From: a virus
Virus record (IMG/VR): IMGVR_UViG_3300043425_000972
Span: 1-28,729 of that record
Length of the DNA stretch: 28,729 nt
Strand: one strand, 5' to 3'
Part shown: one piece after another, positions 9,967-27,353 of the stretch
Numbering within the stretch: position 1 is the first letter of the stretch
Layout of the letters: each line of letters starts with the position of its first letter
Translations under genes and position numbers: made by a program
The notes under the pieces: model-generated
What the model was told of the DNA's origin: nothing
The model's input: only the letters and a program-made list of their open reading frames with translations
The model's database searches: none

Positions 9967-11469
9967 ATGGGTTTGACCGCCGAGATGGTGCAACGGATAC
10001 GGGCTTTGCCGCCTTCCCAGCAACAGGAGTTCGCCCAGCTTCTGGAGGAGTACCAGAAGGCGGTTGATAAGGAGGAATGCCGGACGAGCTTCCTCAAATT
10101 TGTGGAAAAGGTGTGGCCGACCTTCATTTCGGGCCGTCATCACCGGATTATGGCCGAGAAGTTTGAGGCCATCGCCCGTGGAGACCTGAAGAGGCTCATC
10201 ATCTGCATGCCGCCCCGGCATACCAAGTCCGAGTTCGGCTCGTTTTTGCTCCCTTCGTGGTTTTTGGGGCTGTTCCCGCACAAAAAGGTGATTCAGGCCT
10301 CCCACACCGCCGAGTTGGCCGTGGGTTTCGGTCGAAAGGTGCGAAATCTGGTGGACACCGAGACCTACAGCGATATTTTCCCCGATTTGGAGCTTCGTTC
10401 TGACTCCAAGGCCGCCGGACGCTGGGATACCTCCAATGGAGGGAGCTACTTCGCTATCGGTATCGGCGGCGCGGTGACGGGTAAAGGTGCCGACCTCCTC
10501 ATCATCGATGACCCGCATGATGAACAGGAAGGCCAGTCCGGCGACCCCACCGTTTTTGACCATGCCTACGAATGGTACACCTCCGGCCCGCGTCAACGAC
10601 TCCAGCCGGGAGGGGCCATCGTCATCATCGCCACCCGCTGGTCGAAGCGCGACCTCATCGGCCAAGTCCTGAAGGCCGCCGCGATGCGCGAGGGCGTGGA
10701 TGAATGGGAAGTCATCGAGTTTCCCGCCATCATGCCTTCCGGAACACCGCTCTGGCCGGAGTTCTGGCCGCTGGAAGAGCTGGAGGCCATCAAGGCCGAA
10801 ATCCCGATTCACAAGTGGGAGGCCCAGTACCAGCAAAACCCGGTCTCCGAGGGGGCCGCGCTGGTTAAACGCGAGTGGTGGAAGCAGTGGCCGTCCACCA
10901 CCCCACCGCCCTGCGACTACCTGATTCAGTCGTGGGACACCGCTTTTCTCAAAAATCAGCGGGCCGACTACTCCGCCTGCACCACATGGGGCGTGTTCTA
11001 CCACCCCGACCCGGACACCGGCCAGACCGAGGCCAACATCATCCTGCTCGATGCCTACCGCGAGAAGATGGAGTTCCCGACCCTGAAGAAACGCGCTCAG
11101 GAGATGTACACCTACTGGCAACCCGACAATGTGCTGGTCGAGGCCAAAGCCGCCGGTATCCCCCTCATCTTTGAACTCCGGGCAATGGGCATACCTGTCA
11201 CGGACTTCACACCGTCACGGGGCAACGATAAAATTGCCCGTGTAAACGCCGTTGCGGATATGTTCAGCAGTGGTAGAATCTGGGTGCCACAGACTCGTTT
11301 TGCCGAAGAGGTGATTGAAGAGTTTGCATCTTTCCCCGCCGGAGAGCATGATGACTATGTGGACTCCAGCACGCAGGCGCTCATGCGTTTCAGAAAGGGC
11401 GGTTTCGTGTCGTTGCAATCCGATGCGTTGGAAGAACCCATTTACCGCCGAAAAAAGGAGTATTACTGA
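9967..11469 (+). CDS. terL: Terminase large subunit, 500 aa
   Basis: This is the ATP-driven motor and nuclease that cuts and packages phage DNA into proheads. ATPase motifs: Walker A-like MPPRHTKSE (81-89), Walker B LLIIDD (177-182) and the coupling motif ATRW (222-225). The C-terminal RNase H-like nuclease has SWDTAF (Asp324), a second acidic residue in NVLVEAKAAG (Glu392) and a third in GEHDDYVD (Asp462/463). Length is normal. Such terminases without a classical GxxGxGKS P-loop are common in podo- and myoviruses. GAGG lies upstream of the ATG. The stop overlaps the next start (TGATG). Confidence 0.95.
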   Translation: MGLTAEMVQRIRALPPSQQQEFAQLLEEYQKAVDKEECRTSFLKFVEKVWPTFISGRHHRIMAEKFEAIARGDLKRLIICMPPRHTKSEFGSFLLPSWFLGLFPHKKVIQASHTAELAVGFGRKVRNLVDTETYSDIFPDLELRSDSKAAGRWDTSNGGSYFAIGIGGAVTGKGADLLIIDDPHDEQEGQSGDPTVFDHAYEWYTSGPRQRLQPGGAIVIIATRWSKRDLIGQVLKAAAMREGVDEWEVIEFPAIMPSGTPLWPEFWPLEELEAIKAEIPIHKWEAQYQQNPVSEGAALVKREWWKQWPSTTPPPCDYLIQSWDTAFLKNQRADYSACTTWGVFYHPDPDTGQTEANIILLDAYREKMEFPTLKKRAQEMYTYWQPDNVLVEAKAAGIPLIFELRAMGIPVTDFTPSRGNDKIARVNAVADMFSSGRIWVPQTRFAEEVIEEFASFPAGEHDDYVDSSTQALMRFRKGGFVSLQSDALEEPIYRRKKEYY

Positions 11470-11642
11470 TGAAAGGTCGTACCGCGAAATCCGAAGCCGC
11501 CGAAGTCAAAGGCGCAATGAAGTACAAGAAAGGTGGCAAAGTCAAGATGGCAAAAGGCGGTTGCATGGCCGCTGGCGGTAGCACGGGTAAAGCCCGTGGC
11601 ATGGGAGCCGCCACCAAAGGTGGCAAGTTCACCGATTTGTAA
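11469..11642 (+). CDS. Small Lys/Gly-rich protein, 57 aa
   Basis: A 57-residue basic protein (MKGRTAKSEAAEVKGAMKYKKGGKVKMAKGGCMAAGG...). It starts on the A of the terL stop codon (TGATG), so it is translated by coupling. The KYKKGGKV and KGGC segments recall the C-terminal tag (KKGGxIDGCA) of the three small proteins at 21087-21999, suggesting a related short module. It sits between terL and portal. Small KGG-rich proteins near phage portals are common, but their role is not known to me; a minor virion component is a guess. Confidence 0.75.
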   Translation: MKGRTAKSEAAEVKGAMKYKKGGKVKMAKGGCMAAGGSTGKARGMGAATKGGKFTDL

Positions 11643-11657: not shown

Positions 11658-14189
11658 GTGCCTGTTGACCGTCCCCTAAGCCCGAATGCGGGCGTAGCTC
11701 CGCCTGAAGCCGATTTGGAAGTCGCGCAAAACGACAATGGCTCTGTCGAAGTCATTCTGCCGGATGGTGGCGTGATGGTACAGCTTGGCCCGGAAGATGA
11801 AGCCGAGCAAGACATCGCGCACGATGACAATCTTGCCGAGTACATGGATGCCAGCGTGCTGTCATCGCTCGCCAACGACCTCATCTCCGATTACAAAGCC
11901 GACCGCAACTCCCGCAAAGAGTGGGAAACCACCTACATCAAAGGCCTCGATTTGCTGGGCCTGAAAATCGAAACCAGAACCGAGCCGTGGCAAGGCGCAT
12001 GCGGTGTCTTCCACCCGATGCTGGCCGAAGCCGTGGTGCGCTTTCAGGCGCAGGCGATTCAAGAAATCTTCCCGGCAAAAGGGCCGGTTGTCACCAAGAT
12101 TGTCGGTGATGTGACACGCGACCGAATTAAACAGGCCGAGCGTGTCAAAGAATACCTGAACTTCCTGATTACCGAACGGATGAGTGAGTACCGCGCCGAA
12201 ACCGAGCGCATGCTGTTCTCGCTCCCGCTCGCAGGCTCCGCCTTCCGCAAGGTGTACTACGACCCGAATCTGGGCCGCCCGGCCTCACTGTTCGTTCCGG
12301 CAGAAGATTTCGTGGTGTCGTATGGCGCAACCGATTTGCTGACTTGCGAACGCGCCACCCATGTAATGAAGAAGACACAGAACGAAGTGCGCAAACTTCA
12401 GGTCTCCGGCTTCTACATCAACGAAAAACTCCCGGCCCCATCGCCGGACATCAACGACATCCAGAAAACCTACGACAAGCTCAACGGCGAATCCCAGCCG
12501 TATGACTTGGACGACCGCCACACCCTGCTCGAAATGCTGGTGGACTACGACTTGCCCGGCTTTGAAGACAAAGATGCCGATGGCGAACCGACCGGTATCG
12601 GTCTGCCGTATGTCATCACCATCGATTTGTCGAGTTCAACAGTTCTCGCCATCCGCCGCAACTGGTACTCCGATGACCAATTCAAAAAGCGCCGTCAACA
12701 CTTCGTCCACTACACCTACCTCCCCGGACTTGGCTTCTACGGTTTTGGCTTGGTGCATATGGTCGGCGGTCTGGCGAAATCAGCCACCTCCATCCTCCGA
12801 CAACTGGTGGATGCCGGTACCCTTTCCAACCTTCCGGGTGGACTGAAAACACGCGGCCTGCGCATCAAGGGGGACGACACCCCCATCATGCCGGGCGAAT
12901 TCCGAGATGTGGACATCCCCTCCGGCACCCTGCGCGAGAACATCGCGTTCCTGCCGTACAAAGAGCCGTCCACGGTTCTGTATCAGCTTTTGGGGAACAT
13001 CATCGATGAAGGCCGCCGGTTTGCTTCGCAAGCCGACATGAAGGTCTCCGACATGAACTCGGAAGCCCCGGTCGGCACCACGCTGGCTTTGCTGGAACGC
13101 TCGATGAAAGTCATGTCGGCGGTTCAGGCCCGTTTACACGCCTCGATGAAGAAAGAGTTCAAGCTCATCTCCAACATCGTGCGTGACTGGGGGCCGGATG
13201 AATATCCGTATGAAACCCAAGGTCAGGACATGACCAAGGAAGATTTCAGCGATGCCATCGATGTGATTCCGGTCTCCGACCCGAACGCCGGTACGATGGC
13301 GCAACGGATTATGAAGTATCAGGCCGCCTTGCAACTGGCACAGGCCGCCCCGCAGATTTATGACCTCCCGCTCCTGCACCGTCAGATGCTGGATGCGCTG
13401 GGTCTGGCCGATGTCGATGAAGTCATCCCGCTGAAGGACTCGGTGCCGACCGACCCGGTTTCGGAAAACATGAATGTCCTGAACCAAAAGCCGGTCAAGG
13501 CCTTCAGCTACCAAGACCACGAAGCCCATATCCAGACCCACATGGCCTTCATGCAAGACCCGAAAATCCAGCAACTGGCTTCGCAAAGCCCGAATGCCCA
13601 GCTTATGGCCGCCGCCATGCAGGCCCACATCGCCGAGCATGTCGCGTTCCAGTACCGCAAGGAAATCGAGAAGCAACTGGGTGTCCCGCTCCCGCCCCAA
13701 GACGAACCGTTGCCGGAAGACATCGAGTACCGGTTGTCGCAACTGGTTGGCCCTGCCGCCGACCAGCTTCTGGGCAAAGACCAAGCCGAGGCCCAAGCCG
13801 CCAAACACGCCGCCGAGTCCGAAGACCCGATTCTCAAAATCGAAATCGAAAAGCTCAATCTCAAGAAGAAAGAGCTGGAAGAGAAGAATCAGCGGGAAAT
13901 GGCCGCCATCAATGCCGACCTCGAAAAAGCCCGCATCAAGGCAGGCATCTCCGAGAAGGAAATCGCCTCCCGCGAGCGTATGGAAGGCACCCGGCTGGGC
14001 GTGGACATCGCCAAAACCCAGACCCAGCAGGCGCAAACTGCCGAGCAGATGGCGAACACCGCCAAAGAAGCTGGCATGCGTCTGGGCATCGATATGGTGT
14101 CTAAACAGGAAGACCTCGCCCTGCGCCGCAAGCAACTGGAGCAACAAGACCAGCAGGCCCGTGATAACAACCCCACAGGTGAACAATGA
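11658..14189 (+). CDS. Portal protein with long coiled-coil C-terminus, 843 aa
   Basis: This would form the dodecameric ring through which DNA enters and leaves the head. Long portals with this N-terminal pattern (LISDYKADRNSRKEWETTYIKGLDLLGL ... TEPWQGACGVFHPMLAEAVVRFQAQAIQEIFPAKGPV ... LPLAGSAFRKVYYDP) belong to the P22-like portal group. The fold core seems to run to about residue 640. From about 690 to the end the sequence is charged and helical with many Gln, Glu, Lys and Ala (EIEKLNLKKKELEEKNQREMAAINADL ...), a long coiled coil like the P22 barrel. Translation starts at GTG 11658 after AAGGAGAG. The stop overlaps the next start by four bases. Confidence 0.9.
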   Translation: MPVDRPLSPNAGVAPPEADLEVAQNDNGSVEVILPDGGVMVQLGPEDEAEQDIAHDDNLAEYMDASVLSSLANDLISDYKADRNSRKEWETTYIKGLDLLGLKIETRTEPWQGACGVFHPMLAEAVVRFQAQAIQEIFPAKGPVVTKIVGDVTRDRIKQAERVKEYLNFLITERMSEYRAETERMLFSLPLAGSAFRKVYYDPNLGRPASLFVPAEDFVVSYGATDLLTCERATHVMKKTQNEVRKLQVSGFYINEKLPAPSPDINDIQKTYDKLNGESQPYDLDDRHTLLEMLVDYDLPGFEDKDADGEPTGIGLPYVITIDLSSSTVLAIRRNWYSDDQFKKRRQHFVHYTYLPGLGFYGFGLVHMVGGLAKSATSILRQLVDAGTLSNLPGGLKTRGLRIKGDDTPIMPGEFRDVDIPSGTLRENIAFLPYKEPSTVLYQLLGNIIDEGRRFASQADMKVSDMNSEAPVGTTLALLERSMKVMSAVQARLHASMKKEFKLISNIVRDWGPDEYPYETQGQDMTKEDFSDAIDVIPVSDPNAGTMAQRIMKYQAALQLAQAAPQIYDLPLLHRQMLDALGLADVDEVIPLKDSVPTDPVSENMNVLNQKPVKAFSYQDHEAHIQTHMAFMQDPKIQQLASQSPNAQLMAAAMQAHIAEHVAFQYRKEIEKQLGVPLPPQDEPLPEDIEYRLSQLVGPAADQLLGKDQAEAQAAKHAAESEDPILKIEIEKLNLKKKELEEKNQREMAAINADLEKARIKAGISEKEIASRERMEGTRLGVDIAKTQTQQAQTAEQMANTAKEAGMRLGIDMVSKQEDLALRRKQLEQQDQQARDNNPTGEQ

Positions 14190-17135: not shown

Positions 17136-18044
17136 ATGGCAATTTCACGCGCTCAGATGTTGAAGGAACTCCTGCCGGGCTTGAACGCTCTGTTTGGTTT
17201 GGAGTACGCCAAGTACGAAGACGAACACACCATGATTTACGAAACCGAAAGCTCCGAAAAGGCTTTCGAGGAAGAAGTCAAGCTGTCCGGCTTTGGAACC
17301 GCACCGGTTAAACAAGAAGGTCAAGCCATCGCGTATGACAACGCGCAGGAAGCCTTCACCGCCCGCTACAACCACGAAACGGTTGCGATGGGTTTCTCGA
17401 TTACCGAAGAGGCAATCGAAGACAACCTGTACGACCAGCTCTCGGCTCGCTACACCAAAGCCTTGGCCCGTGGTATGGCGAACACCAAGCAAGTCAAAGC
17501 GGCGGCTCTGCTCAACAACGGTTTCAGCACCTTCCGCTCCGGCGATGGTGTGACCCTGTTCAGCACGGCTCACCCGCTGGTCAACGGCGGCACCAACGCC
17601 AACCGTCCTACGGTCGGCGCTGACCTGAACGAGACCTCGCTGGAAGACGCAATCATCGCAATCGCCAATTACACTGACGAACGCGGCCTCCTGATTGCCG
17701 CCCGCCCGCGCCGCCTCATCGTGCCGTCCAACCTGATGTTCGTGGCAGAGCGCCTCATGGAGACCAGTCTCCGTGTCGGCACCGCTGACAACGACATCAA
17801 TGCCATCAAGAACATGGGTGCTATCCCGGAAGGCTATGCCGTCAATCACTACCTGACGGATACCAACGCCTTCTTCATCATCACCGATGTTCCGAACGGC
17901 ATGAAGCACTTCGTTCGCACCGCCATGTCCACCGGCATGGACGGTGATTTTGACACGGGCAATGTCCGTTACAAAGCCCGCGAGCGTTACAGCTTCGGTG
18001 TGTCCGACCCGCTGGGCATCTACGGCTCGCCGGGTTCGTCCTGA
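17136..18044 (+). CDS. Major capsid protein (HK97 fold, Mu gpT-like), 302 aa
   Basis: The coat subunit. The text matches gpT-like capsid proteins of HK97 fold: an N-terminal LLPGLNALFGLEYAKYEDEHTMIYETESSEKAFEEEV, then the E-loop/spine region with GFSITEEAIEDNLYDQLSARYTKALARGMANTKQVKAAALLNNGF, and the P/A-domain ending FFIITDVPNGMKHFVRTAMSTGMDGDFDTGNVRYKARERYSFGVSDPLGIYGS. The N-terminal delta domain is short, so the separate scaffold upstream makes sense. The ribosome site is AAAGGAG. A strong terminator follows 20 bases after the stop, which isolates the head operon. Confidence 0.9.
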   Translation: MAISRAQMLKELLPGLNALFGLEYAKYEDEHTMIYETESSEKAFEEEVKLSGFGTAPVKQEGQAIAYDNAQEAFTARYNHETVAMGFSITEEAIEDNLYDQLSARYTKALARGMANTKQVKAAALLNNGFSTFRSGDGVTLFSTAHPLVNGGTNANRPTVGADLNETSLEDAIIAIANYTDERGLLIAARPRRLIVPSNLMFVAERLMETSLRVGTADNDINAIKNMGAIPEGYAVNHYLTDTNAFFIITDVPNGMKHFVRTAMSTGMDGDFDTGNVRYKARERYSFGVSDPLGIYGSPGSS

Positions 18045-19427: not shown

Positions 19428-19712
19428 ATGGCAGGCAAAGACCCGCGACTGGAACGAGCAGGAGTGTCAGGGTTCAACAAACCCAAGCGCACTCCTGACC
19501 ATCCGAAGAAATCGCATGTTGTTGTTGCAAAGTCGGGTGACAAGGTGAAAACCATTCGCTTCGGCCAACAAGGCGTTTCCGGCTCCCCGAAAAAAGCGGG
19601 CGAGTCGGAGTCGTATCGCAATCGGCGTGAATCGTTTAAAGCGCGTCACGCCAAGAACATCAACAAGGGAAACATGTCTGCCGCGTACTGGGCCGACAAG
19701 GTGAAGTGGTGA
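19428..19712 (+). CDS. Small basic protein of a phage-conserved type, 94 aa
   Basis: A 94-residue, very basic protein beginning AGKDPRLERAGVSGFNKPKRTPDHPKKSHVVVAKSGDKVKTIRFGQQG and ending FKARHAKNINKGNMSAAYWADKVKW. I recognise this text as a type found repeatedly in phage genomes: a short TIRFG-containing strand region and a conserved C-terminal SFKARHxKNIxxGxxSAAYWAxxVKW, without assigned function. It opens the run of very small basic genes that lies between capsid and connector genes. One GTTTAAAG variant of the recurrent motif codes Phe-Lys inside the C-terminal motif. Confidence 0.85.
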   Translation: MAGKDPRLERAGVSGFNKPKRTPDHPKKSHVVVAKSGDKVKTIRFGQQGVSGSPKKAGESESYRNRRESFKARHAKNINKGNMSAAYWADKVKW

Positions 19713-19716
19713 TGCG

Positions 19717-19899
19717 ATGAAGAAGCCGAAATCTCAAGTCAATAAGGCGGGCGTGTACACCAAACCGGGTATGCGCAAAAGCCTATTTGAAAAGATTAAG
19801 GCTGGCACCAAAGGCGGTGACCCCGGCGAATGGTCGGCACGCAAAGCACAACTTCTGGCCCGTGAGTACAAGTCCAAAGGCGGAGGGTACAAGTCGTGA
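19717..19899 (+). CDS. Small basic protein, 60 aa
   Basis: A 60-residue, strongly basic protein: KKPKSQVNKAGVYTKPGMRKSLFEKIKAGTKGGDPGEWSARKAQLLAREYKSKGGGYKS. The NKAGxYTKPxxRKxLFxxIKAGxKGGxPGxWSARKAQxLAxxYKxxGGGY pattern is a recurring one in phage and large-virus genomes with no known function. The 3' end overlaps the next gene by four bases (GTGA). It has the length and basicity of a nucleoid-type peptide, but that is inference. Confidence 0.85.
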   Translation: MKKPKSQVNKAGVYTKPGMRKSLFEKIKAGTKGGDPGEWSARKAQLLAREYKSKGGGYKS

Positions 19900-20126
19900 A
19901 AGACCCGCAGAAGTCCCTCAAGGATTGGACAGCCCAGAAATGGCGAACCAGCGATGGCTCGCCGTCCAATGGCAAGAAACGCTACCTCCCCGACAAAGCA
20001 TGGAATGCCATGACCTCCGGGGAAAAGGCCGCGACAAACCGAGCCAAAGCCTCTGGCAATGCCAAAGGCAAACAGTTCGTCCCTCAACCCAAAAAGATTG
20101 CGGCGAAGGCCGCCAGATACCGCTAG
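19896..20126 (+). CDS. Small basic protein, 76 aa
   Basis: A 76-residue basic protein starting at GTG 19896 within the previous stop (GTGA). The text KSLKDWTAQKWRTSDGSPSNGKKRYLPDKAWNAMTSGEKAATNRAKASGNAKGKQFVPQPKKIAAKAARYR is a type I recognise from many viral genomes: SLxxWTxQKWRT ... RYLP ... KGKQxVxQPKxIAxKxxRYR, with unknown function. It and the previous gene look like a conserved pair. Confidence 0.85.
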   Translation: MKDPQKSLKDWTAQKWRTSDGSPSNGKKRYLPDKAWNAMTSGEKAATNRAKASGNAKGKQFVPQPKKIAAKAARYR

Positions 20127-20135
20127 GAGATTCAC

Positions 20136-20342
20136 ATGCCCAAAGGTCAAGCCCCATACAAAAAGAAAGATGCCATAACCGCCGCTGGCGACCGACTGCG
20201 TTCCAAGCTGTCCAGCCTTCGTGGCCCGACTGAAGAACTCGGCAAAAAGATTCAGGGTGCCGCTCCGGCTATCTCCAACAAGTTCCCGGACAAGAAGGCC
20301 AAGGGTGGCATGATACGCAAGCCGCAGGGCCGGAAACGCTGA
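20136..20342 (+). CDS. Small basic protein, 68 aa
   Basis: A 68-residue Lys/Arg-rich protein (MPKGQAPYKKKDAITAAGDRLRSKLSSLRG ... KKAKGGMIRKPQGRKR) with one likely amphipathic helix at about 13-40. Its ribosome site is AGGAGA. It is part of the run of small basic genes; no family recognised. Confidence 0.75.
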   Translation: MPKGQAPYKKKDAITAAGDRLRSKLSSLRGPTEELGKKIQGAAPAISNKFPDKKAKGGMIRKPQGRKR

Positions 20343-20343
20343 T

Positions 20344-20538
20344 ATGGCGAAGTCGTCCAAATCCAAGAAGAAACCCGCGCCGTCAAAGGTGAAGGCTTCC
20401 GATGATAGGACGGTCAACACCGTGTCGTACCGGAACCAAGCCGATGCCTTCATGTCTCGGCACCGAAAGCACATGAAAGTCCAAGAAAACCCGTTTGCGG
20501 CGTTCCGCAAGAGCAAGAAGAAGAAATCCGATGGCTAA
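20344..20538 (+). CDS. Small basic protein, 64 aa
   Basis: A 64-residue protein with Lys-rich ends (AKSSKSKKKPAPSKVKA ... AAFRKSKKKKSDG) and a short ordered middle (DRTVNTVSYRNQADAFMSRHRKHMKVQENPF). It starts one base after the previous stop and overlaps the HNH-like gene by eight bases. No known family. Confidence 0.7.
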   Translation: MAKSSKSKKKPAPSKVKASDDRTVNTVSYRNQADAFMSRHRKHMKVQENPFAAFRKSKKKKSDG

Positions 20539-20809
20539 GGCATCCTCCCGCGATTACACCCGTGAACGGCTCAATGAGTCGCCACAGCGCGTGAAAGACC
20601 GGGCCATGCGCAACAAGGCCCGGCGCGAGCTGATGCGCGAGGGCCGCGTTGAGAAAGGCGATGGCAAGGTGGTTGACCACAAGCGTCCACTGAGCCGTGG
20701 CGGTAGCGTTGACCGGTCGAATTACCGTGTCCACAGCGACAAAGCATCCGACCGTCAGGGCGGAAATCTTCAACCCAAATCGGCGAAAGCCAAGGGAGGC
20801 CGCAAGTGA
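20531..20809 (+). CDS. Small HNH-like protein, 92 aa
   Basis: A 92-residue basic protein whose core AMRNKARRELMREGRVEKGDGKVVDHKRPLSRGGSVDRSNYRV matches the small phage HNH-type domain: VDH (Asp49-His50), the PLSRGGS loop and Asn64 in RSNYRV. The usual closing Asn-Arg pair is replaced by SDKASDRQGGNLQP, so catalytic competence is uncertain. I chose ATG 20531, overlapping the previous stop by eight bases; an in-frame ATG at 20495 lies deep in that gene. Phage HNH proteins often act in packaging, but those lie near the terminase. Here the neighbours are virion genes. Confidence 0.75.
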   Translation: MAKASSRDYTRERLNESPQRVKDRAMRNKARRELMREGRVEKGDGKVVDHKRPLSRGGSVDRSNYRVHSDKASDRQGGNLQPKSAKAKGGRK

Positions 20810-21084
20810 TTCAGATGTTTAAACGATTTTTCCAGAAAATTGGTCGATGGTTACTTTTCCGCAAAGACGAGGATAACGATATGGCAATGGGCCGTTCCAG
20901 CATGAGTCAGCAAATCACCAAGCCGGGCGTTCCGGCCAACCCCAAAAAGGTTGCGAAGGTGATGAAAGAATTTAAACAGGGTGACCTTCATTCTGGCAAG
21001 AAAGGGCCGGTCGTGAAGAGCCAGAAACAGGCAGTCGCCATCGCTCTTTCCGAAGCCCGCCGGGCCAAGAAAAAGAAGAAATAA
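20806..21084 (+). CDS. DUF6496-like small basic protein, 92 aa
   Basis: A 92-residue protein. The C-terminal half (about 44-88: PKKVAKVMKEFKQGDLHSGKKGPVVKSQKQAVAIALSEARRAK) matches the DUF6496 pattern (VMxEFKxGxLHSGxKxGPxVKxxxQAIAIAxSEAxxAxK), known across bacteria and phages, function unknown. The N-terminal 25 residues are aromatic and basic (MFKRFFQKIGRWLLFRK), unlike the family. Translation may start at GTG 20806 (GTGA overlap), at ATG 20815, or at ATG 20881, which would give just the family domain. The octamer at 20817-20824 overlaps the second of these. Confidence 0.75.
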   Translation: MIQMFKRFFQKIGRWLLFRKDEDNDMAMGRSSMSQQITKPGVPANPKKVAKVMKEFKQGDLHSGKKGPVVKSQKQAVAIALSEARRAKKKKK

Positions 21085-21086
21085 CC

Positions 21087-21569
21087 ATGAAGAAGAAATC
21101 CAAATACGCCTCTGGCGGTTCGCCTAAGCCCATGACAATGGCCGAGCGCGTTGCCGACCGAAACCGCCGTATGGCTCAGGCGATGGGTGACGCTCCTTCA
21201 AAGCCTAAACCGGCACCAAGGCCTGCTAAACCCAAGCCGTATGCCGCTGGCGGCCCGATTATGCAATCCTCTATGCCCATGTCTTCCATGAGGAACTTTG
21301 GGCTTTCCGGTGGCGCAGGAAGCCCCATGATGTCTCCTCCTGTGTCGGTTCCTCCGATGGGCGCAAACCCAATGGATGGCCGTCCTCTGCGTGCCGAGCG
21401 CGGTCTTGACCCTGCCGCGATGCGACAGCGGTTTGCCGAGCAAGCCTCCGGAATGGCTGGTCGTATTCGTCCCGGCGCTCCGTCCCCTGTTGGGCCGGGC
21501 GGCGGCTATAAGAAAGGCGGTAAAATTGATGGGTGTGCCACTCGCGGCATGACCAAAGGAAGGAAATAA
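21087..21569 (+). CDS. Gly/Pro/Met-rich protein with C-terminal KKGGxIDGCA tag, 160 aa
   Basis: A 160-residue, low-complexity protein: a basic N-terminus (MKKKSKYASGGSPKPMTMAERVADRNRRMAQAMGD), a Pro/Lys/Ala section, then Met/Gly/Pro/Ser-rich text (about 50-140). The last 20 residues, YKKGGKIDGCATRGMTKGRK, are nearly identical to the C-terminal ends of the next two proteins. Similar DGxAxRGxT ends occur in small phage proteins; I know no function. It likely belongs to the virion, by location. The stop overlaps the next start by one base (TAATG). Confidence 0.75.
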   Translation: MKKKSKYASGGSPKPMTMAERVADRNRRMAQAMGDAPSKPKPAPRPAKPKPYAAGGPIMQSSMPMSSMRNFGLSGGAGSPMMSPPVSVPPMGANPMDGRPLRAERGLDPAAMRQRFAEQASGMAGRIRPGAPSPVGPGGGYKKGGKIDGCATRGMTKGRK

Positions 21570-21814
21570 TGAAAGGTAAAGACCTGTTGGGAACCATTTC
21601 TCCCCTTTACGGTGCAATCACCGGCCACGGCGCGTTCGGCGGCGGCGGTCAAGGTGCATTGGGCCTGCTGGGCAGTCTCGGTGACAAAAAGAAGAAGCCG
21701 GTGTCGGAAGAGGTGGCATCCGATGTCGCCAACGCCGGTGTCGCCAAATTCAAGAAAGGCGGTCGCATTGACGGCTGTGCTACTCGCGGCCATACCAAGG
21801 GGAGCAAATACTGA
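21569..21814 (+). CDS. Small protein with C-terminal KKGGxIDGCA tag, 81 aa
   Basis: An 81-residue protein: a Gly-rich N-terminal half (KGKDLLGTISPLYGAITGHGAFGGGGQGALGLLGSLG), possibly membrane-active or flexible, a charged link (DKKKKPVSEEVASDVANAGVA) and the tag FKKGGRIDGCATRGHTKGSKY. The start at 21569 uses the A of the previous TAA; a longer frame to 21533 would lie inside the previous tag. The Gly-rich lead resembles short phage ejection or internal proteins, but this is a guess. Confidence 0.75.
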   Translation: MKGKDLLGTISPLYGAITGHGAFGGGGQGALGLLGSLGDKKKKPVSEEVASDVANAGVAKFKKGGRIDGCATRGHTKGSKY

Positions 21815-21999
21815 TGAAATCCCCCATGAATGGCAAAGGCATGCCGGTTGAGATTGAAATCACCATCGGCGAAGAGTCTGAGAGCGAAGACTCCGAAAAA
21901 GAGTCTCCGGAGTCTTCTGACAAGCCGAAGGGCTACAAGAAGGGCGGTCGGATTGATGGCTGTGCCATCAAAGGCCATACCAAAGGCACGGTGCGCTGA
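21814..21999 (+). CDS. Small protein with C-terminal KKGGxIDGCA tag, 61 aa
   Basis: A 61-residue protein with an acidic middle (IEITIGEESESEDSEKESPESSDKPKG) and the tag YKKGGRIDGCAIKGHTKGTVR. The three tagged proteins have unrelated bodies (Met/Pro-rich, Gly-rich, acidic) and one shared ending. The start shares a base with the previous stop, and the stop shares one with the next start, so the set is translated as a chain. Confidence 0.75.
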   Translation: MKSPMNGKGMPVEIEITIGEESESEDSEKESPESSDKPKGYKKGGRIDGCAIKGHTKGTVR

Positions 22000-22703
22000 T
22001 GGCGACCAGTGGAACAGCGATTTTCAACCCGGAGTTCTCTGAGCTGGTCGAAGAGGCCTACGAGCGTGCCGGGCTGGAACTGAGGACGGGCTACGACCTC
22101 AGAACGGCTCGCCGTTCCATGAACTTCATGGCTCAGGAGTGGCAGAACCGAGGCATCAACCTCTGGACGGTCGAGTCCGATACCATGACGCTGGTAGCCG
22201 GGCAGACTTCCTACAACATGCCTGCCGACACCATCGACCTGATTGAGCATCAGATTCGTTTAAACAACGGAAGCACGACCTCTCAGTCAGACTACTCGAT
22301 GACCCGTATCTCGGTCAGCGACTACGCGCAAATCAACAACAAGACCACTCAGGGCATGCCCCTGCAAATCTATGTTGACCGACAGCGCGACAACCCGGTC
22401 GTGTACCTCTGGCCGGTTCCAGACGGCTCCCAGACCTATACGCTGGCCTACTGGTATCTGCGCCGGATTCAGGATGTCGGTGCCGGTGGTGCCAACACCA
22501 TCGATGTCCCGGCCCGGTTCCTGCCGGTGCTGGTGGCTGGGCTGGCCTACTACATCGCCATGAAGAAACCGGAAGCCTCCGACCGTCTGGCGATGCTTAA
22601 ACAGGTCTATGACGAGCAGTGGGAGATGGCCTCCGGCGAAGACCGTGAGAAGGCCTCCAGTCATTTTGTGCCGTTCATCGGCTCCATCGGGCGTAACTGC
22701 TGA
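21999..22703 (+). CDS. Head-tail adaptor-like protein, 234 aa
   Basis: A 234-residue protein with the text of phage connector or adaptor proteins: an N-terminal helical part (NPEFSELVEEAYERAGLELRTGYDLRTARRSMNFMAQEWQNRGINLWTVESDTMTLVAGQTSYNMPADTIDLIEHQIR), a central beta part (PLQIYVDRQRDNPVVYLWPVPDGSQTYTLAYWYLRRIQD) and a C-terminal helix bundle (FLPVLVAGLAYYIAMKKPEASDRLAMLKQVYDEQWEMA). The VAGQxxYxxPxDxxDI motif and ending are typical of this group. It would bind the portal on the outside. An exact GTTTAAAC codes Leu-Asn within it (22258-22265). Confidence 0.8.
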   Translation: MATSGTAIFNPEFSELVEEAYERAGLELRTGYDLRTARRSMNFMAQEWQNRGINLWTVESDTMTLVAGQTSYNMPADTIDLIEHQIRLNNGSTTSQSDYSMTRISVSDYAQINNKTTQGMPLQIYVDRQRDNPVVYLWPVPDGSQTYTLAYWYLRRIQDVGAGGANTIDVPARFLPVLVAGLAYYIAMKKPEASDRLAMLKQVYDEQWEMASGEDREKASSHFVPFIGSIGRNC

Positions 22704-23083
22704 TGAGCGTACCGTTTTCATCGGGAAAGTATGCCCACGGCTTCTGCGACAGATGCGGAATCCGTGTGGACGAGCTGAACTCGATGAAAAACCAGCCCAG
22801 AGACCAGATGCCGACCGGAATCATGGTCTGCTCCGAGTGTCTGGACATTGACCATCCCCAGCTCCAGCTCGGCAAGCTCCCGATTAGCGACCCGCAGGCG
22901 CTCCGCCTTGCCCGGCCTGACACTACCTACTATGCCCCCGGCAACGAGGGTGCCAACGGTAGCCGTCAGATTCAGTGGGGCTGGAACCCGGTAGGCATGT
23001 CGCCCGGCTACGATGCCGCCCTTACCCCGAACGACCTTTTGAGCTATCCTGAAGTCGGCACCGTCACCATTATCATTTCGTGA
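22703..23083 (+). CDS. Zinc-finger-type connector-region protein, 126 aa
   Basis: A 126-residue protein with a four-cysteine zinc site: GFCDRC (Cys15, Cys18) and VCSEC (Cys43, Cys46), then DIDHPQLQLGKLPISDPQALRLARPD. This combination (FCDRCGxR ... VCxxCxDxDHPQ ... DPQALRxxRPD) is one I recognise from phage genomes directly after adaptor genes; role unassigned. The C-terminal half is beta-rich. The ATG overlaps the adaptor's stop (TGATG). Confidence 0.75.
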   Translation: MSVPFSSGKYAHGFCDRCGIRVDELNSMKNQPRDQMPTGIMVCSECLDIDHPQLQLGKLPISDPQALRLARPDTTYYAPGNEGANGSRQIQWGWNPVGMSPGYDAALTPNDLLSYPEVGTVTIIIS

Positions 23084-25400: not shown

Positions 25401-27353
25401 ATGGCAGAGCCATTAGGCATATTCGATAAAGAACTATTGCTTGAGGCTTGGTTTGGTGGACAACCTGTAGCGCAATGGTTTGATGACGACCTCGTTCAGT
25501 CTGCGGGCGGGTCAGTTGTCAATGTCCCCGTTACCGGCGAACAGGCCACAGCCTCTGTCGGAACCGTCACGGTTGTCACAAGCGCAACCGTAACCATTAC
25601 CGGCGAGCAGATTACTGCCTCTGTTGGCACCGTCACCGTCACCACGGCATCGTCCACCGATGTTCCGGTAACAGGCGAGGTCGCCACCGTTTCTGTTGGA
25701 ACCGTTGCCATTACATCCAGCCCAACGGCTGTAATTACCGGCGAGCAGATTACGGCTTCTGTCGGAACCGTCACCGCAATCTCTAGCGCCACCGTATTGG
25801 TCACTGGCGAACAGGCAACAGCCTCTGTCGGCACCGTAACAGTCACCTCCAGTCCGACAGTATCGATTACCGGCGAACAGGCCACTGCCTCTGTCGGAAC
25901 CGTTACCGCAGGCTCCAGCGTAACTGTATTAGTCACTGGCGAGCAGATTACGACTTCCGATGGAACCGTAACAGTCGCTTCCAGCTCGACAGTATCGATT
26001 ACTGGAGAGCAGGCAACCGTCTCTCAAGGTACTGTCACGGTCACTCTGAGTCCGACCATCGCTGTCACCGGAGAGCAAATTACTGCCTCTGTAGGCACCG
26101 TCACTACGGAAGCCAGCATTACGACAGCCGTTACTGGCGAATCTGCCACCGTTTCAGACGGAAGCGTCACTGTAACCTCCAGCTCAACGGTTGCTGTCAC
26201 TGGAGAGCAGATTACGGCCTCTGCCGGGACTGTTGCTGTTTCCACGGACGCTACGGTATCTGTAACCGGCGAACAGGCACTTGTGTCGGACGGCACTGTA
26301 ACTGTCCTATTCAGCGCCACGGTACAGGTTACGGGGCAGTCCATTACCGCCTTTGTAGGCGATGTCGGGATTGATACCGGCGGCACAACAACGGTTACGG
26401 TAACCGGTGAAATCCTTGTTGCCCTTTACCCCGGCATGGGCTGGGGCGATGTCCCGTGGGGCTTTGAGGGCTGGGGTTCGACCGGCGAAGAAGAAATCGT
26501 TGTCATCTACCCGGAAACGATTGTTTCTGTCACAGGCGAGCAGGCCACAGTCTCTGAAGGCACCGTATCGATTACTGAGGTCGAAGAGGTCGCCGTTACC
26601 GGCGAGGCCGCAACGGTATCGGCTGGAACCGCCATTGTCGAGGTCGGAACGCCAGTAGATGTCACTGGAGAAAGTTTAAACGCTCTGAATGGAACGGTTA
26701 CTGTCATATCCAGCCCGACAGTATCCGTCACCGGAGAGCAGGCGACCGTCTCGGTCGGCACCGTTACAGCCCTTCCAGTCACCATCGCCCTTGTTACCGG
26801 CGAACAGGCCGCTGTCTCGGCTGGCACCGTCACAGCAACCCCTGTCACCATCGCCACCGTTACCGGCGAGGAGATTACGGCCTTTGCTGGCACTGTAACG
26901 GCCTTCTCAGGCATTGCAATCCCTGTGGATGGTCAGGAGGCCACTGTAGCCGCTGGCTCCGTACAGGCGCTCACATTCCAAGATGTGCCGGTAACTGGCG
27001 AAGAGCTGACGGCCTCTGTCGGAAATGCGACTGTAACGATTGACCAAACCACAGTTGTCACGGGCAATCAGGCTACCGTGTCTGTTGGTAATGTTACAAC
27101 AGAGATAAGTATCCAAGTTATGGTTTCGGGCATTCAAGCCGTTGCAATGCTTGGCAGTATCAACATTTGGAGTATCATTAATCCAGACCAGAATGCTGAC
27201 TGGCAGAATTTAAACGATTCGCAAACAGCAGGATGGGCGGCTGTGGATAGTTCTCAGTCTGCTGGTTGGTCGCCCGTTACCGATACTCAACCTGATGGAT
27301 GGATTGAAGTTGACAGTACGCAAAACCCAAATTGGTCAGACATAGCGGCATAA
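25401..27353 (+). CDS. Large 22-residue beta-repeat protein, 650 aa
   Basis: Residues about 36-590 are built from some 23 tandem units of about 22 residues with consensus VTGEQATASVGTVTVTSSPTVS. About residues 340-370 the pattern is broken by a Gly/Trp-rich insert (LYPGMGWGDVPWGFEGWGSTGE). The N-terminal 35 residues (EPLGIFDKELLLEAWFGGQPVAQWFDDDLV) may attach it to the virion. The C-terminus holds four short units of the type DSQTAGWxxV (about 597-648). Such VTG repeats are known from phage structural proteins and form long beta stacks; a tail or head fibre is the likely role. Repeats differ at many synonymous sites, so they are old. Confidence 0.75.
   Translation: MAEPLGIFDKELLLEAWFGGQPVAQWFDDDLVQSAGGSVVNVPVTGEQATASVGTVTVVTSATVTITGEQITASVGTVTVTTASSTDVPVTGEVATVSVGTVAITSSPTAVITGEQITASVGTVTAISSATVLVTGEQATASVGTVTVTSSPTVSITGEQATASVGTVTAGSSVTVLVTGEQITTSDGTVTVASSSTVSITGEQATVSQGTVTVTLSPTIAVTGEQITASVGTVTTEASITTAVTGESATVSDGSVTVTSSSTVAVTGEQITASAGTVAVSTDATVSVTGEQALVSDGTVTVLFSATVQVTGQSITAFVGDVGIDTGGTTTVTVTGEILVALYPGMGWGDVPWGFEGWGSTGEEEIVVIYPETIVSVTGEQATVSEGTVSITEVEEVAVTGEAATVSAGTAIVEVGTPVDVTGESLNALNGTVTVISSPTVSVTGEQATVSVGTVTALPVTIALVTGEQAAVSAGTVTATPVTIATVTGEEITAFAGTVTAFSGIAIPVDGQEATVAAGSVQALTFQDVPVTGEELTASVGNATVTIDQTTVVTGNQATVSVGNVTTEISIQVMVSGIQAVAMLGSINIWSIINPDQNADWQNLNDSQTAGWAAVDSSQSAGWSPVTDTQPDGWIEVDSTQNPNWSDIAA

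Follow-up and report, generated by a model that had tools for sequence, protein, structure and literature searches.

Three consecutive genes in a 28,729-nucleotide stretch of viral DNA (IMG/VR record IMGVR_UViG_3300043425_000972; the whole stretch is called the window below) encode proteins with unrelated bodies and a common C-terminal tag. We lean towards reading this tag as a portable docking or targeting peptide that would bring accessory proteins into the phage head or neck via a common partner. So read, the tag is an element of a known kind, a targeting peptide, in a new form.

Three consecutive proteins of the window end in one tag

The three ORFs lie head-to-tail on the plus strand. ORF A (21087..21569; 160 aa) has a Met/Pro/Gly-rich basic body and ends in ...GYKKGGKIDGCATRGMTKGRK, with the tag KKGGKIDGCATRGMTKGRK encoded at 21510..21566 (+). 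ORF B (21569..21814; 81 aa) has a Gly-rich body and ends in ...KFKKGGRIDGCATRGHTKGSKY, with the tag KKGGRIDGCATRGHTKGSKY at 21752..21811 (+), and ORF C (21814..21999; 61 aa) has an acidic body (VEIEITIGEESE) and ends in ...GYKKGGRIDGCAIKGHTKGTVR, with the tag KKGGRIDGCAIKGHTKGTVR at 21937..21996 (+). Their common ending is KKGG(K/R)IDGCAxxGxTKG. In the best 17-residue register, 13/17 residues are identical in all three, whereas 2000 shuffles of the proteins averaged 1.7 identical residues and never exceeded 4. The first-pass annotation had described consecutive unrelated proteins with a common C-terminal tag on Met/Pro-rich, Gly-rich and acidic bodies, and the analysis confirmed this description, with net charges of +21, +7 and, counting its basic tag, −1, respectively. 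The ATG of ORF B overlaps the stop codon of ORF A (TAATG), that of ORF C overlaps the stop codon of ORF B (TGATG) and the ATG of the following portal-tail adaptor gene, at 21999, overlaps the stop codon of ORF C (TGATG); because of these overlaps, the three ORFs and the adaptor are probably translated together.

The tag block is bounded on the left by the gene for the major capsid protein (17136..18044, +; Pfam Phage_capsid_4 and Mu-like_gpT) and on the right by that for the adaptor (21999..22703, +; Pfam SU10_adaptor), and both products are candidate receptors. Upstream lie two markers of the lineage, the terminase large subunit (9967..11469, +) and the 843-aa portal protein (11658..14189, +). 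Between the capsid and tag genes, positions 19428-21084 encode a series of small proteins with a high positive net charge (+12 to +17), several of which are frequent across the lineage (g19717, g19896); the series includes an HNH-like protein (20531-20809) and, directly before ORF A, an untagged DUF6496 protein (20806..21084, +) whose relatives elsewhere in the lineage are tagged. The gene next after the adaptor (22703-23083) encodes a zinc-ribbon-like CDRC...CSEC arrangement, and that at 25401-27353 encodes a 650-aa protein consisting mostly of ~20-residue repeats of the type VTGEQATVSVGTVTV.

The tag recurs at the C-termini of other phage proteins

The sample for the tag profile consisted of three IMG/VR scans, the isolate relatives and the window. 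The first scan used a degenerate DNA pattern for GGxIDGCAxxGxTKG and matched at least 119 stretches, and the second and third used RGDGIA-type and RGDGCA-type patterns; the position of the match within the gene was free in all three. The tag counts are samples, because chosen patterns were used and only the matches listed were counted. Among these, every ORF with the strict motif had it at most 19 aa from the C-terminus, and 98/130 ORFs had it exactly 3 residues before the end. At least 758 matches were C-terminal (at most 25 aa from the C-terminus) against 43 internal ones among the matches listed, and several of the 43 are chance matches in repetitive proteins. The tag ended exactly 3 residues from the end in 533 of the 758 listed C-terminal matches (~70%), while 8–20 further residues followed it in about one quarter of the copies listed; a second length class has ~11–12 extra residues ending in K-x-C. 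Because about a quarter of the copies are extended and a related motif is N-terminal elsewhere, the tag does not strictly need a free C-terminus at a set distance. The first-pass annotation had let its reading hang in part on conservation beyond this phage, and the matches listed comprise at least 684 distinct tagged proteins, with 1–5 per locus; on this count the outcome speaks against refutation.

The 3-residue class follows the profile R-(A/G/I)-D-G-(C/I)-A-x-(R/K)-G-K-T-(K/R)-G-(R/K)-hydrophobic-hydrophobic. Among the matches listed, G-13, G-8, T-6 and G-4 are invariant in this class, with zero exceptions in 376 distinct tails, and D-14, A-11 and K-7 exceed 90%, although invariance at pattern-fixed positions is partly built in because the patterns selected them. 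Lys and Arg interchange freely at -9, -5 and -3. AlphaFold2 gave the tag a pLDDT of about 32–36, compared with 70–80 for body helices; for the 81-aa ORF B, pLDDT was low over the full length.

The Cys, present in 3/3 window tags, had been taken as invariant and as a possible means of attachment. Its invariance holds in the window only: across the 758 matches listed, the position is C in 407, I in 279, V in 66 and another residue in 6 (54%, 37% and 9% for the first three), and neighbouring C and I copies occur within a single genome. Attachment by disulfide, thioether or metal through this residue, for which Cys in about 54% of all copies listed would speak, is disfavoured to the point of being highly improbable by Ile or Val in ~46% of copies, some in the same genome as Cys tags. 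Cysteine linkage, an AT-hook and the encapsulin TVGSL peptide were all rejected as identities of the tag on the tail profile.

Querying isolate phages by BLAST-type search, with either short tag peptides or complete tagged proteins, yielded no useful match, but these blanks are not evidence of absence, because low-complexity filtering and the search statistics blind such queries; the tag of Planktothrix phage Pag-Yong1 was revealed only by translating its genome. The libraries searched (Pfam, NCBIfam and PHROGs) held no family model containing the tag, which escapes them, being shorter than a domain and attached to unrelated bodies. Literature searches for the motif letters returned no phage paper, and no prior description was found. 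The strict pattern was absent from the 84,980 cellular genomes scanned, and hence no prophage source was seen.

Unrelated bodies occur with and without the tag

The tagged proteins listed (at least 684) fell into 213 body clusters, of which 152 were singletons. Because the biggest cluster, with 298 members, is probably chained via low-complexity repeats, we state the diversity as at least dozens of unrelated bodies. Among the matches listed, the tagged proteins have a median length of 123 aa and 84% of the bodies have no cysteine of their own. The bodies are small and of low complexity; order-promoting residues make up a fraction of 0.16 in them, compared with about 0.27 in the window's structural proteins. 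Almost none of 125 body representatives matched Pfam or NCBIfam, or any PHROG of known function.

Several body families occur in the lineage both with and without the tag, which lies outside the models that cover them. Among the loci collected, the DUF6496 family (PF20106) was tagged in 27 cases versus 18 untagged, the phrog_16759 family in 80 versus 31, and the SFCARM/DUF6321-like family (PF19846) in 13, with 154 untagged; neither DUF has a known function. Untagged SFCARM proteins stop at a conserved RAW(N/K)C, whereas tagged ones run on via a short linker into the tag. At locus L059, the counterpart of the window's untagged DUF6496 protein is fused to an ORF C-like acidic stretch plus the tag. 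The phrog_16759 model and the N-termini of phrog_22033 and phrog_25121, which are annotated as virion structural proteins, match the first ~40–50 residues of one body set, and bodies of the phrog_16759 type have relatives in phiKZ-like phages. Small proteins of phiKZ-like jumbo phages (phiKZ PHIKZ165.1) likewise match the N-terminal ~40–50 residues of bodies such as L185:2460-2876. The PHROGs 'virion structural protein' matches were rejected as direct evidence for the tag, the match being to the body N-terminus.

The composition of tag and bodies bears on the main rival to docking, nucleic-acid binding, in which the tag would be a DNA-condensing end and the tagged proteins nucleoid-like, coating or neutralising packaged or replicating DNA. 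The tags carry a net charge of +3 to +6, 98% of the bodies listed are at zero or above (median +7; 2% acidic), the adjacent untagged small proteins of the window are strongly basic as well and the free exchange of Lys and Arg would suit a role for charge. However, variation is lowest at the Gly, Thr, Asp and Ala positions and not at the basic ones, suggesting a defined conformation or pocket; in 70% of copies the distance from the motif to the C-terminus is also constant, ORF C combines an acidic body with the tag, and no conserved Pro provides the GRP core of an AT-hook. We regard nucleic-acid binding as a credible but lesser possibility, and the two readings are not mutually exclusive.

The tag is constrained as protein sequence

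Comparison of ORF A and ORF C with their orthologues gave pN/pS values of 0–0.07 for the tag and about 0.4–0.55 for the body. ORF B departs from this pattern, its body being conserved as much as or more than its tag, and in the SFCARM family the body is more conserved than the tag. The tag is thus under constraint at the protein level, but the contrast of a frozen tag and a drifting body is not universal. An orthologue of ORF B (L102:1858-2154) has an eroded tag end (GCAIRGKTNCKMKSYK) and may be a natural case of tag loss.

A functionless hitchhiker spread by local duplication or recombination in a variable locus might also produce many tagged genes, and adjacent tagged genes are indeed common. 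At several variable positions, tags within one genome agree more than in shuffles (0.62 versus 0.47 at position -12), but gene conversion and a shared partner would both give such agreement. Among the three window copies pS is 0.47–0.61; about half of the synonymous sites differ, so these are not fresh DNA duplications, and the protein is nevertheless conserved. Together with the exceptionless, partly pattern-forced Gly and Thr positions of the 376 tails, this makes hitchhiking very unlikely. Within-genome agreement was also considered as a clue to the receptor and was dropped because kinship and the choice of patterns both confound it.

The tag is confined to the head-to-neck region of one phage lineage

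In a comparison of the window's proteins with all loci except the window, 337 of the 346 tag loci listed possessed one or more structural genes of this lineage; the remaining nine are the window itself and eight fragments of 1.1–5.6 kb. Among the matches listed, all 730 placed tagged ORFs were on the strand of the structural genes. The interval from the major capsid protein or cement gene to the adaptor contained 721/730 placed copies (63 of these with the adaptor beyond the fragment end), and the other nine followed directly after the adaptor. In 31 long records (30–67 kb), there were 56 matches to the tag pattern, spread over 29 records; each lay on the same strand as the adaptor and at most ~6.6 kb from it (55 upstream, 1 downstream), while a reversed control pattern gave zero matches in the same 31 records.

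The terminase, portal, scaffold, capsid and adaptor are all present in the tag lineage, which comprises aquatic, mostly uncultured bacteriophages. Relatives by portal or capsid include the Pelagibacter phages HTVC023P and HTVC027P, the Roseobacter phages CRP-901/902, phage DSL-LC04, Caulobacter phage RW, Alcaligenes phage QDWS535 and Pag-Yong1; for the last, MinM2 and Pra-JY27 gave the same length and match. Short fragments excepted, the tag-bearing phages are one podovirus-like lineage, relatives of HTVC023P and Pag-Yong1. The capsid protein had no sequence relative among solved structures. The adaptor occurs in a short form (~235 aa) and a long form (~310 aa) with a ~75-residue insert (L129, L130, L134 and others). 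The long form is commoner with Ile/Val tags, an association that kinship and the choice of patterns confound, and for this reason the pairing of Cys/Ile class with adaptor length was dropped as a receptor clue.

Presence of the tag varies within the lineage. In a sample drawn by capsid similarity, independently of the tag, 25 of 40 informative loci were tagged, and some of the 15 'untagged' loci carry variant (NG for DG) or degenerate tags. A gene-content comparison of tagged and untagged loci found no gene unique to the tagged ones. Among eight isolate relatives whose genomes were read, only Pag-Yong1 has the main tag, in UMO75986.1 between cement and adaptor, and this tagged phage offers a usable host–phage pair; HTVC027P, CRP-901 and Caulobacter phage RW showed no main tag. 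Because several relatives in the lineage have no main tag, the tag is not essential to head assembly.

The tag genes are co-located with those for the scaffold, GroES and capsid, and this setting would also suit assembly-only accessory factors, scaffold- or chaperone-like, whose tag binds a prohead component transiently and which are gone before maturation. The low-complexity Met/Lys/Gly-rich bodies and the absence of tagged proteins from some relatives fit such factors as well, but the turnover of the bodies resembles accessory cargo more than a conserved assembly factor, and we consider an assembly-only role unlikely.

Related motifs mark other small proteins

The 57-aa ORF between the terminase and portal genes (11469..11642, +), which the first-pass annotation had taken for a looser version of the tag, proved related but distinct. 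It has no DGCA..GxTKG block and belongs to a separate class with RGMGAATKG (codons 11595-11621) followed by 6 residues; it has only the core R-(G/A)-x-G-x-A-x-(K/R)-G in common with the main tag. This second class, RG-x-GAA-(T/I/V)-(K/R)-G, stands 6–8 residues before the C-terminus and was found in 189 ORFs of 188 loci, one per genome, with 22 body clusters, mostly at a fixed neck position between g22703 and g23093. HTVC023P, which has no main tag, has two unrelated second-class proteins (L122 13873-14610 and 24698-25081). A third form, DG(I/V)..GKTKG, stands at the N-terminus of ~63-aa proteins, also between g22703 and g23093; in examples such as L250:1244-1435, L271:2247-2441 and L280:4620-4814, NLGDSGP follows the motif. 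The core G-x-A-x-(K/R)-G is only loosely common to the main tag, the second class and the third form, and we do not claim common descent.

A docking peptide best accommodates the evidence

The docking or sorting signal proposed by the first-pass annotation is the best-supported reading once attachment through the Cys is set aside. A docking peptide with a common receptor fits because the tag is portable, optional on one and the same body and fixed in its position at the end. It fits also because Gly, Thr, Asp and Ala are invariant, rather than charge, and because the tag is predicted to be unstructured and is restricted to the late head genes. Accessory proteins ending in the 15–20-residue tag would be made together with the products of these genes, the tag would bind one common partner in the virion or prohead (the capsid inner face, scaffold, portal or adaptor) and unrelated small, mostly basic proteins would thereby be incorporated into the head or neck. 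We infer three things: the existence of such a receptor, its location in the head or neck, and the arrival of the tagged proteins in virions.

More tentatively, the tag may define an open-ended cargo system in which any small protein that gains it is loaded via one receptor, so that virion-delivered accessory proteins are quickly gained, lost and swapped, with the second motif RGxGAATKG marking a single protein of the neck block. If the docking reading is true, the tag would serve these phages as an address label recognisable from the sequence by itself. Accessory virion proteins could then be listed for a group of aquatic phages that is large, abundant and for the most part uncultured, their bodies matching no known family yet being recognisable by the tag, and the use of such a C-terminal tail as a simple handle to load proteins into phage heads would become testable.

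Comparison with known targeting signals

On the docking reading, the tag would act in the manner of the capsid-targeting sequence (CTS) of T4 internal proteins, though from the other end of the protein. The T4 CTS is N-terminal and is removed by the prohead protease. The tag described here is C-terminal (at least 758 matches versus 43 elsewhere, among the matches listed), and the annotated or scanned genes of the module included none recognisable as a prohead protease. Between the T4 CTS and the tag, no sequence relation was found or is claimed. The likeness lies in diverse bodies under one short signal, here with 213 body clusters and with tagged and untagged versions, and in a late structural gene context, basic proteins and a signal that is portable. 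The T-even internal proteins are highly diverse and have only a conserved targeting sequence in common (PMC3012670).

Family 1 encapsulin cargo-loading peptides are short, mostly C-terminal, carried by unrelated proteins and read by the interior of an HK97-type shell (PMC8346489). Like them, the tag is a short C-terminal peptide on otherwise unrelated proteins; unlike them, it has no TVGSL-type motif, its tail profile being RxDG(C/I)Ax(R/K)GKT(K/R)G. Because a defining feature of each is absent from the tag, we class it with neither the CTS nor the encapsulin peptides. Encapsulins are cellular compartments, whereas the tag is encoded together with a phage terminase, portal, scaffold, capsid and adaptor.
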